A DNA stretch of 64,000 nt, taken from NCBI RefSeq assembly GCF_000217935.1, contig NZ_AFHI01000016.1, positions 1 to 64,000 of the forward strand. The letters run 5' to 3'. Positions 2,704 to 59,807 of this stretch are shown piece by piece (position 1 is the stretch's first letter; every line of letters begins with the position of its first letter). The notes beneath the pieces were generated by a model. It was given only the letters and a program-made list of their open reading frames with translations, ran no database searches and had not been told where the DNA came from. The position numbers and the translations under genes were made by a program. Source of the DNA: Rheinheimera sp. A13L. GTDB lineage: Bacteria > Pseudomonadota > Gammaproteobacteria > Enterobacterales > Alteromonadaceae.

Positions 2704-2860
2704 CTTTTGTCTTTCGTATCTAAATCTGAAAGCACTTTGCCATGGTCATACCAGATCTGCAATGACTAAATCGGAGGGGGGATGTTGAATATCATGCGTG
2801 TCCATCTTCGCAACAAGCATCCGGCCTGCGCCAGAGGCGAAAGACCGTTATCACCCCGAC

Positions 2861-2992
2861 AATTGCGACATACCGTCCATCCATGGACATCGTCGCAACA
2901 ATGTTCCCAACAGTTGCGACATACCGTCCATCCATGGACATCGTCGCAACAATGTTCCCAACAGTTGCGACATACCGTCCATCCATGGACAT
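2861..2992. repeat. 51-bp tandem repeat with nested hairpin units
   Basis: Copies begin at 2861, 2912 and 2963; the third is truncated after 30 bases. Each full unit contains GTTGCGAC...GTCGCAAC (for example 2913–2920 with 2943–2950) enclosing GTCCAT–CC–ATGGAC. Because 51 is a multiple of three, every frame stays open and produces spurious repetitive ORFs on both strands. The stretch 2704–3038 contains this array and the following terminator, and no gene that I can support. Confidence 0.9.
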
Positions 2993-3023
2993 AAAAAAGC
3001 CCGGTATCAAACCGGGCTTTTAG
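2993..3023. terminator. Rho-independent terminator after the TonB receptor gene
   Basis: AAAGCCCGGT pairs with ACCGGGCTTT around a short ATCAA-type loop. A-rich and T-rich flanks occur on both sides, so it can act for the minus-strand TonB receptor gene ending at 3039, and it also limits read-through into the repeat array. Confidence 0.8.
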
Positions 3024-24545: not shown

Positions 24546-24682
24546 AAAAAAGCCTGAGGAAAAAAGCCTCAAGGCAAACAACCAAGCCAGACAAAAACGC
24601 GTAAAAACGTGTATAGCAACAAATCAGCAGGAACGTAAAAAGTGCATAGACACTGTTCTGTAGCTAATTGCAGGGTGATGTG

Positions 24683-25840
24683 ATGAATTTTAATTTAACA
24701 GACGATCAAAAGGCCTTTGTTGAGGTCGCTAAACAATTCGCTGACCAGGAACTGGCGCCACATGCTGCAGCCTGGGATCGGGATCACCATTTTCCAAAAG
24801 CTGTGATCCAAAAAGCCGGTGAGCTGGGTTTTTGTTCTTTATACACGCCTGAAGATCAAGGTGGTATGGGTTTATCCCGTTTAGACTCCAGCATTATTTT
24901 TGAACAGTTGTCTATGGGCTGCACCGCAACAACTGCAATGTTAACCATCCATAATATGGCGACATGGATGATTGCAACCTGGGGCACTGAAGATGCCAAA
25001 GCACAGTGGTGCCCGGAGTTAGTCACAGGTGAAAAGCTGGCCTCTTATTGTTTAACTGAACCAGGTTCCGGTTCAGATGCGGCGTCTTTGCGTACCAGCG
25101 CAAAAAAAGATGGCGATCACTATGTGCTCAATGGCTCCAAGATGTTTATCTCTGGTGCTGGCGAAACTGAAGTTTTAGTGGTGATGGCACGCACCGGTGA
25201 AGCCGGTCCTAAAGGCATCTCCGCTTTTATCGTACCAGCGGATGCACAAGGCGTCATTTACGGCAAAGCCGAAGAGAAAATGGGCTGGAATGCTCAGCCA
25301 ACCCGCTTAATCACTTTTGATAATGTACGAATTCCCGCCCATTACCTGCTCGGAAACGAAGGTGAAGGTTTTGGTTTTGCGATGAAAGGCTTAGACGGCG
25401 GCCGTATTAATATTGCCACTTGCTCTATTGGCACAGCGCAACAAGCGTTAAATACAGCCCGTAACTATATGCTGGAACGTCAGCAGTTTGGTAAACCACT
25501 GGCAGCTTTTCAGGCCTTGCAATTTAAACTGGCAGATATGGCAACAGAACTGGTTGCAGCCCGTCAATTAGTGCGTTTAGCCGCTTTTAAACTGGATTCA
25601 AACGACCCGGAAAAAACAGCCTACTGCGCTATGGCCAAACGTTTTGCCACAGATGTGGGTTTTGCGGTCTGTGATCAGGCGCTACAAATCCACGGTGGTT
25701 ATGGCTATATCAAAGAATATCCGCTGGAAAGGCATTTCCGTGATGTACGGGTGCACCAGATTTTGGAAGGCACCAATGAAATTATGCGACTGATTATAGG
25801 TCGACGTTTACTAGACGAAGCAGCCAACGAGATCTTATAA
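24683..25840 (+). CDS. Acyl-CoA dehydrogenase, probably isobutyryl-CoA dehydrogenase
   Basis: A 385-residue FAD enzyme. ATG 24683 follows AGGGTG; the longer TTG frame adds five residues. The catalytic base is the usual C-terminal Glu362 in LEGTNEIM, unlike LiuA, which carries its base at Glu249. Motifs are CLTEPGSGSDAASL and KMFISGAGETEVLVV, close to mammalian ACAD8. With mmsA, a hydratase, an HIBCH-type hydrolase and mmsB around it, oxidation of isobutyryl-CoA from valine is the best assignment; 2-methylbutyryl-CoA is a possible second substrate. Confidence 0.88.
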   Translation: MNFNLTDDQKAFVEVAKQFADQELAPHAAAWDRDHHFPKAVIQKAGELGFCSLYTPEDQGGMGLSRLDSSIIFEQLSMGCTATTAMLTIHNMATWMIATWGTEDAKAQWCPELVTGEKLASYCLTEPGSGSDAASLRTSAKKDGDHYVLNGSKMFISGAGETEVLVVMARTGEAGPKGISAFIVPADAQGVIYGKAEEKMGWNAQPTRLITFDNVRIPAHYLLGNEGEGFGFAMKGLDGGRINIATCSIGTAQQALNTARNYMLERQQFGKPLAAFQALQFKLADMATELVAARQLVRLAAFKLDSNDPEKTAYCAMAKRFATDVGFAVCDQALQIHGGYGYIKEYPLERHFRDVRVHQILEGTNEIMRLIIGRRLLDEAANEIL

Positions 25841-25850
25841 ATTTAAGCCC

Positions 25851-25985
25851 GTCGTACTTGAAGCCGCAGCTTTGTTAGCTGCCTGATTGTAGATAAAAAG
25901 CACGCCTCAGTCACATAGGTAAACTATGCTCCTGGGGTCTCGTGCGCTTGTCGTCGCGCTGCAACTCCAATTACTTAGGGTTATA
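25851..25985. repeat. ERIC-like intergenic element, copy 1
   Basis: The segment runs from GTCGTACTTGAAGCCGCAGC to the TTACTTAGGG end. Its centre, CAGTCACATAG–GTAAA–CTATGCTCCTGGGG, is a palindrome, and it also holds GCTTGTCGTCGCGCTGCAAC. The same modules recur at 53.2 kb and, inverted, at 58.0 kb. The architecture and end sequences recall enterobacterial ERIC (IRU) repeats. It fills the gap between the acyl-CoA dehydrogenase and hydratase genes. Confidence 0.75.
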
Positions 25986-26053
25986 GTGCGCGTAATTATC
26001 GGTAAAAAGCTAACCGGCCAAATTCAATGAAGCCCGGTAGAAACGGAGATTTT

Positions 26054-26827
26054 ATGGCACAACTCAAACTCGAAAAACGCGGCCATACCGCTTTAATTAC
26101 CATGGCAAATCCTCCTGCCAATACCTGGACCAAAGACACCCTGACGCAATTGCGTGATGCTGTGAAATCTTTGGAGCAGGACAAAAACATTTATGCTTTA
26201 GTGATCACAGGCGAAGGTGAAAAATTCTTTTCAGCTGGTGCTGATTTAAATTTGTTTGCCTCAGGTGACAAAGCAGTTGCTGCTGATATATCGGCTATTT
26301 TTGGCGAAGCTTTTGAAACCTTAACGGCCTTTCGTGGTGTGTCCATTGCGGCCATCAACGGCTATGCCATGGGCGGCGGCCTGGAAGTAGCTTTAGCCTG
26401 TGATATCCGTATTGCTGAAACTCAGGCGCAAATGGCTTTACCTGAAGCCAAAGTTGGTTTATTGCCTTGTGCAGGTGGCACTCAGAATCTGGCGATCTTA
26501 GTCGGTGAAGGCTGGGCAAAACGAATGATCTTGTGTGGTGAACGTCTAACAGCAGACAAAGCCTTACACATAGGTTTAGTCGAAGAAGTGGTAGGCACAG
26601 GAATGGCACTTGAAGCCGCTTTATTGCTGGCTGATAAAGTGGCAGAGCAAAGTCCACCCGCAGTGGCTGCCTGTAAGCAGCTGATCCAAAAGGGCCGCAG
26701 TGCTCCTGTGCAAACGGCTTTGCCTTTGGAGCGTGAGCTGTTTGTGAAGTTGTTTGATACTCAGGATCAGGTGGAAGGGGTGCAGGCGTTTTTGCAAAAA
26801 CGTAAAGCCAGCTGGATTAATGGATAA
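26054..26827 (+). CDS. Enoyl-CoA hydratase
   Basis: A 257-residue crotonase. ATG 26054 has CGGAG upstream, so the longer frame is unnecessary. The oxyanion motif FFSAGADLNLF lies near 60, GGGLEVALACDIR near 105 carries the first catalytic Glu position, and PEAKVGLLPCAGGTQ near 130 the second. In the valine pathway it would hydrate methacrylyl-CoA to 3-hydroxyisobutyryl-CoA. The next gene starts six bases after its stop, giving a tight operon with hibch, mmsB and the SDR gene. Confidence 0.9.
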   Translation: MAQLKLEKRGHTALITMANPPANTWTKDTLTQLRDAVKSLEQDKNIYALVITGEGEKFFSAGADLNLFASGDKAVAADISAIFGEAFETLTAFRGVSIAAINGYAMGGGLEVALACDIRIAETQAQMALPEAKVGLLPCAGGTQNLAILVGEGWAKRMILCGERLTADKALHIGLVEEVVGTGMALEAALLLADKVAEQSPPAVAACKQLIQKGRSAPVQTALPLERELFVKLFDTQDQVEGVQAFLQKRKASWING

Positions 26828-47010: not shown

Positions 47011-50000
47011 TTATTCAGCTGAACCAGGTTTTGTCATAGGAGCAACACTCATCTGACGGGCAGAGGCTGAGCCACCAGGACGTTCTGAACTGATCACCAG
47101 AGGTCGTTCGCTGTTATCCATAGCTGCGGTTTGAGCTGCAGTTTCTGTAGCTGCCACAGTTTCAGCTTTGGCTACTGGTTTAGTCATATCTGCAGTCACC
47201 ATTCTGGCGTATCTGTTACCAGCAACAACCGGAGCTTTCACTTCAGCAACTACCTTTTTCACAGCTGCTTTACGCGTGCGGGCCTTTGGTGCTTCTTCAA
47301 CTACAGCAGATGGTTCAGCAGCAACTGGTGTTGCTTCAACAGCAGGGGCTGGTTCAGCAGCAACTGGTGTTGCTTCAACTACAGGAGTTGGTTCAGCAGC
47401 AACTGGTGTAGCTTCAACAGCAGGGGCTGGTTCAGCAGCAACTGGTGTAGCTTCAACTACAGCAGCTGGTTCAGCAGCAACTGGTGTAGCTTCAACAGCA
47501 GGGGCTGATTCAGCAGCAACTGGTGTAGCTTCAACAGCAGGGGCTGGTTCAGCAGCAACTGGTGTAGCTTCAACAGCAGGGGCTGGTTCAGCAGCAACTG
47601 GTGTAGCTTCAACTACAGCAGCTGGTTCAGCAGCAACTGGTGCGGTTTCAACAACAGCAGCAGTTTCAGTGACTGTTTCAGTAATCGGCAGATCCAATTG
47701 CTGTTCAGTGCTTAGTGTAGCGTCCTGATCTTCAGGGTAACGCGCAGCTAAAGCTTCTTCAGCTTCCTGGTCCTGTTGCTCTTTTTTACGTTTCTGACCA
47801 GCAGCACGTAAATGACGAGGAGAACGACGGCTGCGGCTGCGACCTTCAGCGGCTTCTTTTTCCGCATCAGTGCTTTCAACAGCATCAGTATCGACAGTTT
47901 CAGCTTCAACAGCATCTGCCTGAACAGGTGCTTCAGTCACCGCAACAGCTTCTTTTATTTGTGCTGCTACCGCAATTTCAGCCACAGCTGTGTCGATGGC
48001 GACTGGTGCAACTACTGCGGTTTCGACCATAGGAGAGGCGACTACTGCTGCTTCCACTACAGTTGTTGCTGCTACAGCTGCAACGCCTTCTTTTTCATGA
48101 CGCACAGACTTGCGCATCTGACGGCGTTGACGGCGCTCAACAATTTTAGTGCTGTGCTCTTCGTCGTTTTCTACGGCTTTAACCGGAGCTGGACGTTCTG
48201 ATACAGGTTTTTTCTGTTCCGGACGTTCAGTACGTTCTGGTCTTTCGGCACGCTCTGGTCGCTCAGTTCGTTCTGTGCGCTCTCCACGTTCCGGGCGTTC
48301 ACCACGTTCCTGACGAGGTTTATCCTGTCTTGGCGCTCGTTGTTCCGTAGTACGTTCAGTAGTGCGCTCAGCTTTCGCTGGAGTAGCGTTGTCGTCTTTT
48401 GCAACTTTTTCATCCCCTTCCTGACGGCGGCGATTTTTGTTGTTACGACGTCTGTTGTTATCACGGTTATTCGTGCGGCGTGGTGCTTCTTCTACTTTTT
48501 TCTCTGGAGCAGGAGCTGCAGCGAATAAAGATTTAAACCAACCCACTACAGAATCGACCAGGCCTGGGCCTGCTTCTTTTACTTCGGCTACTTCAACTTT
48601 ACGAGCTGCAGCAGCTACAGCGGGCGCGGCAGCAGCAGAGGCCGAAGCTTCAGCCATATTAATAGCTGAGACTGCAGGCTTTTCTTTGACGTTTTCGCCA
48701 ATAGGGTGATAGACAGCACTGCCGATAGCAGGAGCTTTCACCATGTTGTAGCTGGACTCTTCAATTTCTTCGTCGATACGGATGCGCGTCACTTCATAGT
48801 TTGGCGTTTCCATATGTTCGTTAGGAATGATGTAAATCCGGATACCGTGACGGCTTTCAATACGACGCACTGAATCACGTTTTTCATTCATCAGGTAAGT
48901 AGCAACAGAAACCGGCACCTGAGCATGAATTTGACTGGTGTTGTCTTTAATGGCTTCTTCTTCGATTAAACGCAAAATCGACAGAGCGGAAGACTCGGTG
49001 CTGCGGATAGTACCGCGGCCATGACAACGTGGACACACATGAGTGGCAGATTCGCCCAGTGACGGACGTAAACGCTGACGTGACATTTCCAGTAAACCAA
49101 AACGTGAAATGCGGCCAATCTGTACGCGGGCACGGTCTTGTTTTACGGCGTCTTTTAAACGGTTTTCTACTTCACGTTGATGACGCACTGGCGTCATATC
49201 GATGAAGTCGATCACAATCAAACCACCTAAGTCACGTAAACGTAACTGACGGGCAATTTCATCTGCCGCTTCTAAGTTGGTATTAAAGGCTGTTTCTTCG
49301 ATATCACCGCCTTTGGTTGCTTTTGACGAGTTAATGTCAATGGCAGTTAAAGCTTCAGTGCTGTCGATAACGATTGAGCCACCAGAAGGTAAACGCACTT
49401 CACGACGGAAAGCGGATTCAATCTGAGTTTCAATCTGGAAGTGCATAAAGAGTGGCACTTCGCCCTGATACATTTTGACGCGGTGGGCAAAATCAGGACG
49501 GAACTGCTGAATATAAACTTTGGCTTCTTCGAAAATACGTGGGTTGTCGATCAGTATTTCGCCCACATCACGGCGCAGGTAATCACGGATAGCACGGAAG
49601 ACCACGTTGCTTTCCTGATGGATCAGAAATGGTGCAGGGCGGTTTTGAGCTTCGTGCGTAATAGCAGACCAGTGTTTTAATAAGGCTTTTAAATCGTAAT
49701 CCAGCTCTTCGTGAGATTTACCCACACCAGCGGTACGAACAATTAAACCCATGCCGTCTGGCAGTTGTAATTGATCCAAAGAGTCTTTTAAATCCTGACG
49801 CTCGTCACCTTCAATACGACGGGAAATACCACCGGCGCGAGGGTTGTTAGGCATCAGCACTAAATAAGAACCAGCTAAAGAAATGAATGTAGTTAAGGCT
49901 GCGCCTTTTTGACCACGTTCTTCTTTATCGATCTGGATAATAACTTCCTGACCTTCTTTAACTACTTCTTTAATATTGGGGCGACCGTCAAAGGTATAAC

Positions 50001-50241
50001 CGGCTGGGAAATATTCGCGGGAGATTTCTTTCAGAGGTAAAAAGCCATGGCGTTCAGCACCATAATCAACAAAAGCAGCTTCCAGACTGGGCTCAACCCG
50101 GGTGATTTTTCCTTTGTAGATATTTGCTTTTTTCTGTTCGTGTCCTGGGCTTTCAATATCCAGGTCGTATAATTTTTGTCCATCGACTAGTGCTACGCGG
50201 ATTTCTTCTTCCTGCGTGGCGTTAATTAACATTCTTTTCAT
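47011..50241 (-). CDS. rne: Ribonuclease E
   Basis: A 1076-residue endoribonuclease, scaffold of the RNA degradosome. The N-terminal half follows E. coli RNase [19 protein letters not shown]1 domain (about 35–120), the catalytic DNase-I-like region with [18 protein letters not shown] and [14 protein letters not shown] (both Asp present), and the Zn-link CPRCHGRGT. The C-terminal half is disordered: an Arg/Glu-rich RNA-binding stretch ([19 protein letters not shown]-type), then nine 13-residue Ala/Pro/Glu/Val repeats, and a conserved end ([14 protein letters not shown]). Likely autoregulated through its leader. Confidence 0.96.
47312..47662. repeat. 39-bp tandem repeat within rne
   Basis: Nine in-register 39-base units, each starting GGTTCAGCAGCAACTGGTG on the plus strand, encode [13 protein letters not shown]-type 13-residue repeats (about residues 860–977). 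The ninth unit is diverged. Open frames on the opposite strand over this region are by-products of the repeat. The near identity of units implies recent slippage or recombination. Confidence 0.95.
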
Positions 50242-51816: not shown

Positions 51817-52463
51817 TGAGTTCGGACATCGCTTTAGTAGTATTTGACTGGGACGGCACAGTGATGGACTCAGTGGGTCGTATTGTCTCCTCGATGCGTT
51901 CTGCTGCAGAACTGTCTGGTTTAGTAGTGCCCACCGAACATCAGGTCAAACAAATTATTGGCCTGAGTCTGGACCCTGTATTTGATATTTTGTTCCCAGG
52001 TATCAATGCAACACAGCGCCAGACCGTATTTGAGCATTACCGCGACCAGTATTTGTCGCATGAGCATCCGCCGACCCCTTTATTCGAAGGTGCTGAGCAG
52101 GTGATGCAGGAGCTGACGCAACAAGGTATTGTGTTAGCTGTAGCGACAGGCAAAGCACGTAAAGGCTTAAAGCGGATGTTTGAAGAGACAGGTTTAGAGT
52201 CGTACTTCAGTACCAGTCGCTGCGCCGATGAAGCCGAATCCAAACCCAGCCCTGATATGCTGAAGCAAATTCTGGCAGAACTTAAGTTACCCGCTCACCG
52301 CGCTATTATGGTGGGGGACACTATTCACGATATGGCAATGGCGCAAGCCATAGAGATGCCACGTATAGGGGTTACTCATGGCGTGCATGGCAGGGAAGAG
52401 CTAAGCCGTTACCAGCCCAAAGCTATTATTGATTCGTTGCCAGAGTTATTAAATGCGCTCTGA
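51816..52463 (+). CDS. HAD-family phosphatase
   Basis: A 215-residue HAD hydrolase of the phosphoglycolate phosphatase/YjjG type. Motif I is FDWDGTVMDS (catalytic Asp12 region), motif II is the Thr in AVATGKARKGL, motif III a Lys near SKPSPDML, and motif IV is MVGDTIHDMAMA. A small alpha-helical cap follows motif I. It is translationally coupled to rluC, an arrangement kept in related genera. The substrate is not known. Confidence 0.92.
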   Translation: MSSDIALVVFDWDGTVMDSVGRIVSSMRSAAELSGLVVPTEHQVKQIIGLSLDPVFDILFPGINATQRQTVFEHYRDQYLSHEHPPTPLFEGAEQVMQELTQQGIVLAVATGKARKGLKRMFEETGLESYFSTSRCADEAESKPSPDMLKQILAELKLPAHRAIMVGDTIHDMAMAQAIEMPRIGVTHGVHGREELSRYQPKAIIDSLPELLNAL

Positions 52464-52469
52464 TTATCC

Positions 52470-52575
52470 GTAGGGGCGGGTCTTGCACCCGCCTGTCTAA
52501 TGATACCGCGGTGCCAATGGTCGGGCCGGGACAAGCCTAGGCCCCTACACCCGCCCGTCTATTGATACCGCGGGC
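52470..52575. repeat. Direct and inverted GC-rich repeats between HAD and yceF genes
   Basis: CACCCGCC(C/T)GTCTA(A/T)TGATACCGCGG occurs at 52486–52514 and again at 52548–52575, period 62. GGCGGGT–CTTGC–ACCCGCC is a hairpin at 52475–52493, and GTAGGGGC (52470–52477) is inverted at 52541–52548. The element separates two converging genes and shares sequence with the palindromes at 34.7 kb. Confidence 0.8.
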
Positions 52576-52580
52576 TCAAG

Positions 52581-53174
52581 TCAGGGCTGGGTTAATAAAT
52601 CTACGCCTTCCAATCTGAGCATTTCAAGCAAACGAATAAGCGGCAGGCCTATTAAACTGTTTGGGTCGTCGCCTTCGAGCTTTTCAAACAAACTAATACC
52701 CAAACCTTCACTTTTAAAACTACCGGCACAGTTCAGAGGTTGCTCTCTTTCTATATAAGCAAGGATCTCTGCGTCTGTTAACTCACGAAAATGCACTTTA
52801 AAGGGCTCAACACAAAGCTGATGCTGTTTGGTTTGTGCATTGACCAAAGCGAGGCCTGTTAAAAAGGTGACACTATGGCCGCTGAAGCTTTTTAACTGTG
52901 TATAGGCATTTTCGGCGGTATGAGGTTTACCGAGGATTTGACCGTTAAATACAGCCACCTGGTCTGAGCCTATAACTAAACCTTCAGTTAAGTTATTCGC
53001 CACAGCTTGTGCTTTTAATACAGCTAAGCGGCTGACCAGTTGCTCCGGTGTTTCGCCTGACAGAGCAGTTTCGTCTACTTCGGGTTTTGCGGTAGAAAAG
53101 TTCGGTGTAAGTTTTTCCAATAAAGCCTTACGATACACAGAAGTAGAGGCTAAATATAAAGCTTTGGTTGACAT
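52581..53174 (-). CDS. yceF: Maf-like nucleotide pyrophosphatase (YceF)
   Basis: A 197-residue Maf-family enzyme that hydrolyses non-canonical nucleotides, 7-methyl-GTP for the YceF branch. GAGGTG precedes ATG 53174. Motifs are [16 protein letters not shown] at the N-terminus (S-x-x-R-x-x-L-L), the [13 protein letters not shown] segment, [12 protein letters not shown] with the catalytic Asp, and [11 protein letters not shown]. It lies between rluC and yceD, as in E. coli, but is transcribed away from yceD. Confidence 0.94.
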
Positions 53175-53206
53175 AAAAGCACCTCGTTGGGACAATGCGC
53201 CGCACT

Positions 53207-53332
53207 ATACCCTTCCTACCTGAAGTTGCAACTTTGTTGACTGCACTTTTTCGCCCCAATCACATAGTTTATCTATGCTCATGGGGTCTCAAAAGCTTGT
53301 CGTCGCGCTGCAACATCAGTTACTTTGGGTAG
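53207..53332. repeat. ERIC-like intergenic element, copy 2
   Basis: The element runs from TATACCCTTCCTACCTGAAG to ACTTTGGGTAG. Its centre CCCCAATCACATAG–TTTAT–CTATGCTCATGGGG is palindromic and it carries GCTTGTCGTCGCGCTGCAAC, identical to copy 1. It fills the space between divergent yceF and yceD and ends about 70 bases before the yceD promoter. Confidence 0.8.
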
Positions 53333-53402
53333 ATTAAGCCAGAACGGCCGTCAGAACAGCGGTTTAGGCGGGAATAATTAACAAAAAAGAGGCAGGAATC
53401 CT

Positions 53403-53440: not shown

Positions 53441-53968
53441 ATGCAAAAGGTAAAAATTCCAATTACCCTTGATCCAACCCGAGCTGCGCAGAAACGTGCA
53501 ACCTTTGATGGTATAGTTCCTCTGGTTACTTTAACCAGATTAACTGACTCGTTAGTAAGCTCTGAGGGTGATGTAGACGTAGTAGTAAATTGCGGAACTG
53601 ATGAACAGGGTTTGGTCTTCATTGAAGCTCGGGCTCGTTGTCAGGTACAAGTGAAGTGTGAACGCTGTAGCGAACACATGAGCCTGGAACTGAACACCAG
53701 TTTTGCATACACTCCGATAAGGAGTGACAAAGATTCGGCTCATGACGATATTCCAGAGCGCTACGAAGTGGTCGAAAAAAACGAACACGGCGAAGTTAAC
53801 TTGAGGCAATTGGTTGAGGACGAATTAATTCTGGCTTTACCCTTGTTTCCGATGCATGACGAAGGATCTTGTGATCCAACCAAAGTGCAGATGAGCTGGG
53901 GAGTAATAGAACCAGAACCAGAAAAACCGAACCCATTTGCAATATTGCAAGAATTGAAGAAAAAATAG
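53441..53968 (+). CDS. yceD: YceD family (DUF177) protein
   Basis: A 175-residue protein linked to 23S rRNA accumulation. The N-terminus [19 protein letters not shown] matches E. coli YceD, which fixes the start even though no ribosome-binding site is present. Two cysteines in [10 protein letters not shown] form a zinc-knuckle-like motif, and the C-terminus [13 protein letters not shown] is conserved. rpmF follows after 19 bases, the standard bacterial pair. Confidence 0.94.
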
Positions 53969-57150: not shown

Positions 57151-57900
57151 ATGACGACTCCATTTATTTCTTTAGAAGGTCAGGTAGCTTTAGTCACTGG
57201 TGCAAGCCGTGGTATTGGTCGTGCTATTGCTGAACAATTAGCCGCTTTAGGCGCTAAAGTGGTTGGAACTGCAACAACTGAATCAGGTGCTGCTGCTATT
57301 TCCGCTTATTTAGGTGACAAAGGTTTGGGCCTGGTGTTAAATGTCGGCGATACCGCTTCTATTGAGCAGTGTTTAGAGACTATTAAAGCTCAGTTTGGTG
57401 ATATTGATATTCTGGTGAACAACGCTGGTATTACGCGCGATAACCTGTTGATGCGCATGAAAGAAGAAGAATGGTTCGACATCATGCAAACCAATTTGAC
57501 ATCAGTGTACCGTTTAAGTAAAGCTGTGCTGCGTAGCATGATGAAAAAGCGTCACGGCCGGATCATCAGCATAGGTTCAGTAGTTGGTTCTATGGGGAAT
57601 GCGGGTCAGACGAACTATGCTGCAGCGAAAGCGGGCGTGTTAGGTTTTACCAAGTCATTAGCTAAAGAAGTGGCCTCCCGTGGTATCACGGTGAACGCTG
57701 TTGCACCAGGTTTTATCGACACCGATATGACCAAAGAATTGTCAGAAGAGCAAAAAGAAGCAATTTTCAGCCAGGTCCCGGCGAATCGTCTGGGCCAGCC
57801 GGAAGAGATAGCAGCCGCTGTAGCCTTTTTGGCTTCAGGTCCGGCAGCCTATATTACGGGTGAAACCATTCATATCAACGGTGGTATGTATATGGTGTAA
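57151..57900 (+). CDS. fabG: 3-oxoacyl-ACP reductase
   Basis: A 249-residue NADPH-dependent SDR. TGASRGIG (16–23), NNAG (90–93), Ser143, Tyr156 and Lys160 (YAAAK) form the active site, and the C-terminus HINGGMYMV is the FabG ending. After this gene the operon is interrupted by about 300 bases holding an ERIC-like element before acpP, much longer than the other gaps. Confidence 0.97.
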   Translation: MTTPFISLEGQVALVTGASRGIGRAIAEQLAALGAKVVGTATTESGAAAISAYLGDKGLGLVLNVGDTASIEQCLETIKAQFGDIDILVNNAGITRDNLLMRMKEEEWFDIMQTNLTSVYRLSKAVLRSMMKKRHGRIISIGSVVGSMGNAGQTNYAAAKAGVLGFTKSLAKEVASRGITVNAVAPGFIDTDMTKELSEEQKEAIFSQVPANRLGQPEEIAAAVAFLASGPAAYITGETIHINGGMYMV

Positions 57901-57917
57901 GCTTTTGCCCATGTGGC

Positions 57918-58085
57918 TGAAGTTGCAGTCAATAAAGCTGCGGTTTCAGGAACTAAGGCAAGTTTGCCAAAGTCATTGGTGTCGCAGCGCGACGACAAGC
58001 GAAGAGTTCCCATGAACATAGTTATCTATGTGATTGGGACGACAGAGCGCAGTCAACAAAGCTGCGGCTTCAAGGACAAAGGCAA
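57918..58085. repeat. ERIC-like element, copy 3, inverted and with a duplicated end
   Basis: From 57962 the segment GTCGCAGCGCGACGACAAGC, the palindrome CATAG–TTAT–CTATG, and AGTCAACAAAGCTGCGGCTTC repeat copies 1 and 2 in reverse orientation. The terminal piece AGTCAATAAAGCTGCGGTTTCAGGA at 57926–57950 is a second, partial copy of that end. It lies between fabG and acpP; the 307-base gap holds no gene that I can support. Confidence 0.75.
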
Positions 58086-58492: not shown

Positions 58493-58568
58493 GAAGCTGT
58501 CTGCTACGTACTAAATGCAGGAGTGGATTGACAGCTTTAAAGATTATTTTTCGACTGCGGAGGATTCT

Positions 58569-59807
58569 GTGGCAAAACGTCGAGTGGTTGTGACGGGCTT
58601 AGGTATGCTAACGCCCCTGGGGAACGATGTAACGTCGACCTGGCAGGCTTTATTACAAGGTCAAAGTGGAATAGCGCTGTTTGATCATATTGATCCAGAG
58701 GCTTACACCACCAAATTTGCAGGTTTAGTCAAAAATTTTGACGTCGAACAGTTTTTCCCGGCCAAAGAAGCCAAAAAAATGGATTTATTTATCCAGTACG
58801 GAGTGGCTGCCGGTGTGCAGGCCTTTCGGGATTCCGGACTGGAAATTAACGAAGAAAACGCCGAACGTATTGGTGTTGCTGTAGGTTCAGGCATTGGTGG
58901 TTTAGGTTTAATTGAAGAAAACCACACCAAATTATTGAACAGCGGCCCACGTCGTTTATCGCCGTTTTTTGTGCCTTCTACCATTATCAACATGATTTCC
59001 GGTCATTTATCCATTATGTTAGGTCTGCAAGGTCCAAATATCAGTATTGTGACCGCTTGTACTACAGGTGTGCATAACATTGGTCAGGCCGCCCGTATGA
59101 TTGCTTACGGTGATGCGGACGCGATGATTGCAGGTGGTGCAGAAAAAGCATCGACCACTTTAGGTATGGGTGGCTTTGGTGCAGCCCGTGCTTTATCAAC
59201 CCGTAACGACGCGCCTCAACAGGCCAGCCGTCCATGGGATAAAGACCGTGATGGTTTTGTATTAGGCGATGGCGCTGGTGTGGTAGTACTGGAAGAGTAT
59301 GAACATGCCAAAGCCCGTGGCGCTAAGATTTACGCAGAGCTGGTCGGTTTTGGTATGAGTGGTGATGCTTATCATATGACATCTCCTCCAGAGAATGGTC
59401 GTGGTGCTGCTTTGGCGATGAAAAATGCCTTGCGTGATGCCGGCGTGAACGCTGAGCAAGTGCAATACATTAACGCTCATGGTACCTCTACGCCAGCAGG
59501 TGACATTGCTGAAACTATGGCGATTAAATCTATTTTTGGTGCTAAACCAGAAGGATTAATGGTCAGTTCCAGCAAGTCGATGATGGGGCACTTGTTAGGT
59601 GCTGCGGGTTCTGTTGAATCCATCATTACGATTTTGTCCCTGATCGACCAGAAAGTATCACCAACCATCAACCTGGATAATCCGGATGAAGGTTGTGACT
59701 TAGACTATGTGCCGCATACGGCCCGCGACTCCAAAATGGAATATGCTTTATGTAATTCTTTTGGTTTTGGTGGTACTAACGGTTCTATTCTGTTTAAGAA
59801 AATCTAA
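58569..59807 (+). CDS. fabF: 3-oxoacyl-ACP synthase II (FabF)
   Basis: A 412-residue elongating condensing enzyme. I use GTG 58569 ([18 protein letters not shown]) because GCGGAGG lies five bases upstream and the length then equals E. coli FabF; the ATG at 58515 would add 18 unrelated residues. The active site is Cys164 (TACTTGVHN) with histidines in [12 protein letters not shown] and [11 protein letters not shown] terminator hairpin follows. Confidence 0.96.

Follow-up and report, generated by a model that had tools for sequence, protein, structure and literature searches.

ERIC repeats are widely used to type bacteria. Three similar intergenic segments in the window (the whole 64,000-nucleotide stretch of Rheinheimera sp. 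A13L DNA analyzed here) had been put forward, from their end motifs and palindromic core, as an ERIC-like family outside the enterobacteria. The locus raises the question of whether these repeats are genuine ERIC elements and, if so, what preserves their form.

Window repeats and their relation to ERIC

A covariance model, R1, was made from 32 aligned Rheinheimera copies. The elements in the window are as follows.

25846-25984, + strand: ERIC copy 1 (R1 131.4 bits, E 2.6e-29)
25904-25937, + strand: core palindrome of copy 1, GCCTCAGTCACATAG...CTATGCTCCTGGGG (direct sequence reading; stem pairs counted)
53208-53333, + strand: ERIC copy 2 (R1 136.1 bits, E 1.8e-30)
57843-57961, - strand: decayed fourth ERIC copy, in tandem with copy 3 (R1 25.9 bits, E 0.0035; direct sequence reading)
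57962-58085, - strand: ERIC copy 3 (R1 121.8 bits, E 6.3e-27)

The three segments form one family at the places originally noted: R1 matches them with E 6e-27 to 2e-30 (rough values, and scores that are not independent because all three copies belonged to the 32 training rows of R1), a repeat finder pairs them, and blastn with copy 1 alone agrees. The core described for them, CACATAG...CTATG between CCCC and GGGG, is present together with the GCTTGTCGTCGCGCTGCAAC arm, except that copy 1 has CCTC for CCCC, and the ends really lie a few bases further out than had been drawn, as TACCC...GGGTA. Rfam returned nothing at gathering scores in the window, so there was no curated RNA model to rely on.

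Copy 1 has a 13-nt insertion within its left arm (139 bp in all). It separates two + strand genes, one for an acyl-CoA dehydrogenase (24668-25840) and one for an enoyl-CoA hydratase (26027-26827); the nearest named relatives of the enoyl-CoA hydratase protein (95-97%) are from Rheinheimera soli, Rheinheimera sp. YQF-1, and R. tangshanensis. Copy 2 occupies the divergent spacer that separates a Maf-family gene (52581-53195, -) from a YceD-family gene (53441-53968, +), and copy 3 is flanked by genes for a short-chain dehydrogenase/reductase (57151-57900, +) and a beta-ketoacyl synthase (58515-59807, +), all gene assignments being from Pfam. Orthologous copies of copy 3 were found in five relatives, and the number of copies at the tandem site that it shares with the decayed copy varies between relatives.

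Other repeats are present in the window. Positions 2855-3007 hold three tandem 51-bp units (CCCGACAATTGCGACATACCGTCCATCCATGGACATCGTCGCAACAATGTT), of which units 2 and 3 are 96% and 71% like unit 1, and a 39-bp repeat array at 47209-47747 falls within the long reading frame 47011-50241 (-). A second dispersed repeat at 52460-52580 (TAGGGGCGGGTCTTGCACCCGCCTGTCTAATGATACCGCGG...) has 25 matches at E ≤ 0.001 in the genome, itself included; by eye, stretches like it occupy the site of one ERIC copy (L246) in several relatives.

A blastn search of E. coli with copy 1 gave partial, weak matches (3332 of 5426 genomes at E ≤ 10, none covering 80%, best E 3e-3), so the comparison had to rely on R1 and the published consensus. 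Over its full length, the Rheinheimera consensus is identical to the 127-nt E. coli ERIC consensus (PMC2759123, Table 1a) at 104 of 127 positions with one gap; the alignment score of 78 compares with -22.3 ± 5.4 for 500 dinucleotide shuffles, of which the maximum was -7 (z 18.7). Window copies 1, 2, and 3 score 38, 45, and 31 against the same consensus, with 94, 89, and 82 identities, and maxima among 300 shuffles per copy of -14, -8, and -6. R1, which is built from Rheinheimera only, detects the E. coli ERIC between ybhI and ybhJ at 84.6 bits over model positions 1-126. The proposed resemblance to ERIC/IRU is thus borne out from end to end. The suggestion that the middle differs holds chiefly for the inner core stem, which is CATAG/CTATG here and CTTAC/GTAAG in E. 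coli; both versions pair. The Rheinheimera consensus ends in TACCC...GGGTATA, mostly preceded by TA, and a lenient test places TA at both ends of 63 of the 96 copies.

The window repeats are, in all probability, genuine ERIC/IRU elements, that is, non-coding mobile hairpin repeats of about 126 bp whose ends are imperfect inverted repeats (TACCC...GGGTA), inserted at TA and present in about 100 mostly intergenic copies. The difference in the inner core stem and at about 18% of positions could be taken as a sign of a separate palindromic family that came to look like ERIC by convergence. Co-linear identity over the whole length with a single gap and a z of 18.7, and the existence of intermediates in other genera, speak against such an origin, which is extremely improbable and is effectively refuted by the R1 match to E. 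coli ERIC and the consensus alignment.

A scarcity of further copies genome-wide would have counted against the prediction; they are plentiful in the 4.52-Mb host genome (71 contigs). Copy 1 alone finds 49 matches there by blastn, the second best at E 1e-31, and R1 gives at least 127 matches at E ≤ 1 (among the best 150 of 2161 candidates scored), a few of which fall on the opposite strand of copies that also match in the forward sense. Run over 95 genome stretches, R1 gave 110 matches at E ≤ 1e-4, from which the 96 copies with at least 72 bits were taken as the working set; tandem copies are undercounted among the 110 (C69:51248-51372, for example, is absent). Some copies stand in tandem with common ends, as at C59:39346-39594 and C69:51125-51495, and the copy number of tandem arrays differs among relatives. 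The length between model ends is 124-127 bp in 77 of the 96 copies, otherwise 120-149 bp in nine, and 180-183 bp in ten, the ten long copies carrying about 56 bp of extra sequence inserted at or beside CCCCAGT^CACATAG. By eye, the inserts of these long copies (L262, L271, L272, L275-L278, L283, L291, and L294) are of at least two sequence types.

A full-length hairpin preserved by paired changes

The element is a single full-length hairpin whose fold is preserved by paired changes, as seen when copies within the genome are compared and again when orthologous copies are. A single copy folds over its entire length with a minimum free energy of -47.5 kcal/mol (z -5.4). When couplings between alignment columns were calculated with average-product correction for the first 95 of the 110 aligned matches, facing positions accounted for 14 of the 20 strongest among 7503 couplings, and for 8 of the first 10. 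The outermost pairs are among the strongest of these, in the forms TACCC/GGGTA, TAGCC/GGCTA, TACTC/GAGTA, AACAC/GTGTT, and TCCGC/GCGGA, and the central palindrome CCCCAGTCAC...GCTCCTGGGG is retained with the inner stem swapped for another pairing stem. Subfamily linkage as the source of the coupling was rejected, since the states of three among the strongest pairs combine freely; it is also contradicted by the lead that facing positions hold after average-product correction.

Pair counts were based on the 36 pairs of the consensus fold in the 110-row alignment, which includes five opposite-strand matches and three clipped at stretch ends. There are 139 double-change cells, in 23 pairs, versus 30.9 ± 4.8 after shuffling (none of 500 shuffles reaches 139), and the covariation score is 0.134 versus 0.070 for shuffled and 0.021-0.054 for slid versions. 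Because the fold was taken from the consensus of these very sequences, the real version has an advantage over the slid ones in the percentage paired, and kinship of the copies inflates the contrast with shuffles; the test on orthologous copies therefore weighs more.

The orthologue set comprised 42 pairs of full-length copies, one from the A13L genome and one from a relative, in 20 sets drawn from 10 site clusters in 11 close relatives and from the window sites; 102 of 108 matches were used to retrieve sites in relatives, and 100 regions were obtained. Orthologous stretches shorter than 105 or longer than 200 bases, at most 62% identical to the consensus, or with fewer than 110 aligned positions were left out, so decayed orthologous copies are excluded. 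Facing positions contain 55 double-change cells versus 20-41 in slid versions and 258 single-change cells versus 311-339, with the proviso that the relatives have a common history, so that the cells do not represent independent events. If each site and pair is counted once, there are 38 double changes versus 15-28 slid, 16 of which go from one Watson-Crick pair to another versus 0-4 slid. Independent insertion or replacement turned out to explain these changes in part, L260 being just 78-79% identical to L378 and L381, and the count was therefore repeated at identities of at least 85, 88, and 90%. This gave 11, 9, and 6 Watson-Crick to Watson-Crick double changes versus slid counts of at most 2, 2, and 1, with 32 pairs left at 88% and 27 at 90%. 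Since the excess persists at high identity, compensation continues in copies after their insertion, though the changes in orthologues are mostly one-sided. Matched changes at inserted copies argue for constraint on the fold itself.

Two facing positions within the hairpin avoid pairing. In Rheinheimera, positions 6-119 are T.T in 52 cases, G.A in 29, and G.T in 9, and are paired in 10%, where the composition of the columns predicts 46%; at positions 26-99, the states are T.C in 60 and G.A in 18 (paired 4% versus 36% expected). We compared 67 distinct copies from six genomes of another genus, labeled f21/g38, in which facing positions make up 9 of the top 10 couplings. There, positions 6-119 are T.T in 40, G.A in 12, and G.T in 8 (paired 18% versus 42% expected) and positions 26-99 are T.C in 29 and G.A in 24 (5% versus 47%). 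Positions 52-74 are G-C or A.A in Rheinheimera and mostly A.A (52 of 67) in f21/g38. Most of the remaining facing mismatches are without comparable coupling.

Insertion sites, genomic context, and the cause of pairing

Clean insertion at TA is shown at one site, C60:345463-345588. Two relatives (L332 and L335) have the empty site, with AATTTAATA followed directly by AATACAG, and L330 has the filled one, AATTTAATA-TACCC...GGGTATA-AATACAG, in which TA is duplicated. Sites other than this one are often unclean, with a different hairpin or an altered flank in relatives. At the site of copy 2, 5 of 16 relatives are empty (TAAC; CACTATAACGCCAG), three carry an element of 126 bp, one of which is badly decayed, three carry a shortened element, and five are too diverged to classify. 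No ERIC was found at the site of copy 1 in 17 relatives, four of them close (L031, L033-L035) and 13 more distant (L037-L049); by eye, relatives have a different hairpin there, with a AACAAAGCAGG...CCTGCTTTGT stem, and L032 starts with the right end of a copy like copy 1. Among 80 named loci, a full copy is present in two, those of Rheinheimera sp. YQF-1 and R. tangshanensis.

At various other sites in relatives, terminator-like stems or different repeats were seen by eye. At some sites we had the impression, also by eye, that ERIC stands in place of terminators, and in L002/L115 the right end of ERIC appears to form a new terminator-like stem with the downstream flank (GGGTAGTAGGTTTACTACCCTTTTTT). 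The spacer that separates the acyl-CoA dehydrogenase gene from the enoyl-CoA hydratase gene in other Rheinheimera and in Arsukibacterium contains another hairpin-like repeat:

about positions 3825-4000 in L037, L039, L041, L044, L047, L048, and L049: spacer hairpin-like repeat

In seven of eight spacers, this repeat has a local score of 18-26 against Yersinia RU-2/YPAL versus maxima of 12-15 in 200 shuffles (L046 scored 11). Judged by sequence similarity, YPAL-like repeats may reach the Rheinheimera/Arsukibacterium group too.

With crude ORF calls (90 aa or longer), 80 of the 96 ERIC copies fall in spaces between ORFs, 13 overlap with a called ORF, and the remaining 3 sit at an edge. The 80 inter-ORF copies are sense (25) or antisense (18) between co-directional genes, convergent (20), or divergent (17), with no clear orientation bias and no preference for the 3' ends of genes. 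Hairpin intactness is 0.896 in divergent regions (15 of the 17 counted) versus 0.906 elsewhere (n = 80), and with intactness equal in divergent regions a role in one kind of mRNA is not favored. In Yersinia, ERIC is described as being co-transcribed and destabilizing upstream transcripts in an orientation-dependent manner (PMC2229807).

We searched for a source of mobility among DDE_3 (IS630-type) transposases, which gave nine matches in 8 of 22 genomes. No pairs of ERIC ends surround these nine matches; two single weak end-like matches were seen (L234 and L237). The ERIC end pattern was searched for in six genomes, and matched 157 and 108 times in two rich ones and not at all in the other four, which carry just 3-8 diverged ERIC matches, so that the lack of end matches in these four has little weight. 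Among the matches listed, inward-facing ends 0.5-5 kb apart occur at G015 693154/693879 and 3272418/3273981 and at G021 688145/689436; both ends of G015 3272418/3273981 belong to separate ERIC copies. An autonomous transposon with ERIC ends was thus not found near the DDE_3 matches of the 22 genomes, with the end-pattern search covering six. In the mechanism that we envisage, ERIC would be moved by an enzyme supplied from elsewhere, inserting at TA and spreading to about 100 mostly intergenic copies. Its constrained form would be a folded single strand, either RNA or single-stranded DNA, and a transcribed copy might, as a stem-loop in the RNA, act on the mRNA around it, by analogy with Yersinia.

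The hairpin could conceivably serve the movement of the element alone, for example as a folded single strand seen by a mobilizing enzyme, with inserted copies idle for the host. We regard this as a possible, somewhat doubtful, account: the lack of a clear orientation or context bias agrees with it, as do the outermost pairs, which are among the strongest couplings and vary in concert among copies, but it sits poorly with the nine compensatory changes, versus 0-2, at inserted orthologous copies, whose compensation means that constraint continues past insertion. The paired changes might instead be mutational, arising when the polymerase switches during replication to the facing arm of an imperfect palindrome and copies a change across. 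In favor of such arm copying, double changes occur at copies that otherwise remain orthologous, and hairpins are equally intact in divergent and other places, as context-blind mutation would give. Yet arm copying would also pair standing mismatches, and positions 6-119 and 26-99 avoid pairing in both genera; an origin of the paired changes by arm copying is accordingly unlikely. Because arm copying would close these two mismatches, we infer that selection on a defined, interrupted hairpin is the preferable reading. Our tentative proposal, which may well need revision, is that selection maintains ERIC as a hairpin with exact interruptions, in which 36 pairs are kept (23 of them changed on both sides) while 6-119 and 26-99 are kept unpaired and switch in concert between pyrimidine-pyrimidine (T.T, T.C) and purine-purine (G.A), pointing to a dedicated structure-specific partner. 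If selection of this kind operates, the partner (a nuclease, an RNA-binding protein, or a mobilizing enzyme) can be sought, and the conserved mismatches specify the exact bases for mutation.

Distribution, origin, and comparison with known repeats

Matches at E ≤ 0.001 were found in all 22 genomes of the Rheinheimera genus searched, with 3 to at least 87 each, and one of 18 other genomes matched as well. A sample of the order gave matches at E ≤ 1e-4 in 83 of 394 genomes, spread over 33 of 114 genera and 13 families (the families counted by hand), and a class sample gave matches in 4 of 369, the A13L genome among them; both counts are lower bounds because the stricter filters of these searches lose weak matches. 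It is our guess that f21/g38 is Vibrio and that family f18 is Enterobacteriaceae. In the class sample, G773 and G540 have one weak match apiece, that of G540 being absent at E ≤ 1e-6. G731, a genome from a different order within the class, has seven full-length ERIC-like matches, and those examined (L197, L200, L201, and L202) show a TGCAC/GTGCA-like core stem and diverged arms. With one copy as the query, 29 of 72,556 plasmid records match, 27 over at least 80% of its length, and the matches are in Escherichia, Salmonella, Klebsiella, Vibrio, Citrobacter, Proteus, Yersinia, Kosakonia, and Serratia.

The original prediction was right to place the family outside the enterobacteria, but ERIC of Vibrionaceae is already in print: a 2024 review, citing Zo 2011, gives Enterobacteriaceae and Vibrionaceae as hosts (PMC10969869), and ERIC is reported for V. 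cholerae and others (PMC2759123). We found no report of repetitive intergenic or miniature inverted-repeat elements of Rheinheimera in the open-licence literature, and for this reason we call Rheinheimera a new ERIC host. What is new is the host and the detailed anatomy; the element family itself is known and, as a family, ordinary. ERIC is not a marker of enterobacteria.

We considered whether Rheinheimera acquired ERIC horizontally from a Vibrio-like neighbor, followed by expansion, or inherited it from a common ancestor. The best match in the order sample outside the A13L genome (L170, 142 bits) falls in a single other genus, f21/g38, no more than a minority of the sampled genomes match (83/394), and the number of matches per genome varies widely within the genus, all of which could reflect horizontal gain. 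Against this, ERIC is present in every Rheinheimera-genus genome searched and in several other families of the order, so that old inheritance with loss fits equally well, and we consider horizontal gain rather unlikely.

E. coli K-12 has some 30 ERIC copies (PMC10969869). With about 100 copies, a strong pairwise signal, and orthologous sites that are filled in some and empty in others of 11 close relatives, Rheinheimera is a richer test bed for ERIC than E. coli K-12.

The Rheinheimera element shares with ERIC/IRU/RU-1 of E. coli and other enterobacteria its length, the TATACCC...GGGTATA ends, the full-length hairpin, a mainly intergenic location, and the terminal TA, as well as the core CCCCAGTCAC...GCTCCTGGGG and the right arm CTTG.CG...CTGCAACTC.AATTA.TT. 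It differs from E. coli ERIC in the inner core stem, as described above, and in the left arm, which is TACTTGAAG in Rheinheimera and TATTTCAAG in E. coli, and its host lies beyond both families named by the 2024 review (PMC10969869). A Vibrio ERIC, from a plasmid of Vibrio sp. HDW18, is 78% identical over its full length to one Rheinheimera copy. The core in genus f21/g38 is mostly CCCCAATCAC/GCTCATGGGG, and the same form is a minority in Rheinheimera. YPAL/RU-2 of Yersinia is likewise a small intergenic hairpin repeat, but it is described as 168 bp long and without TA ends (PMC2229807), and it has another sequence (PMC2759123, Table 1b); YPAL was rejected as an identity for the window family, as its length, ends, and sequence differ. 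Correia/NEMIS and RUP, compared here by their description (PMC2229807), are elements of the same kind in other organisms, namely non-autonomous hairpin repeats with TA ends.
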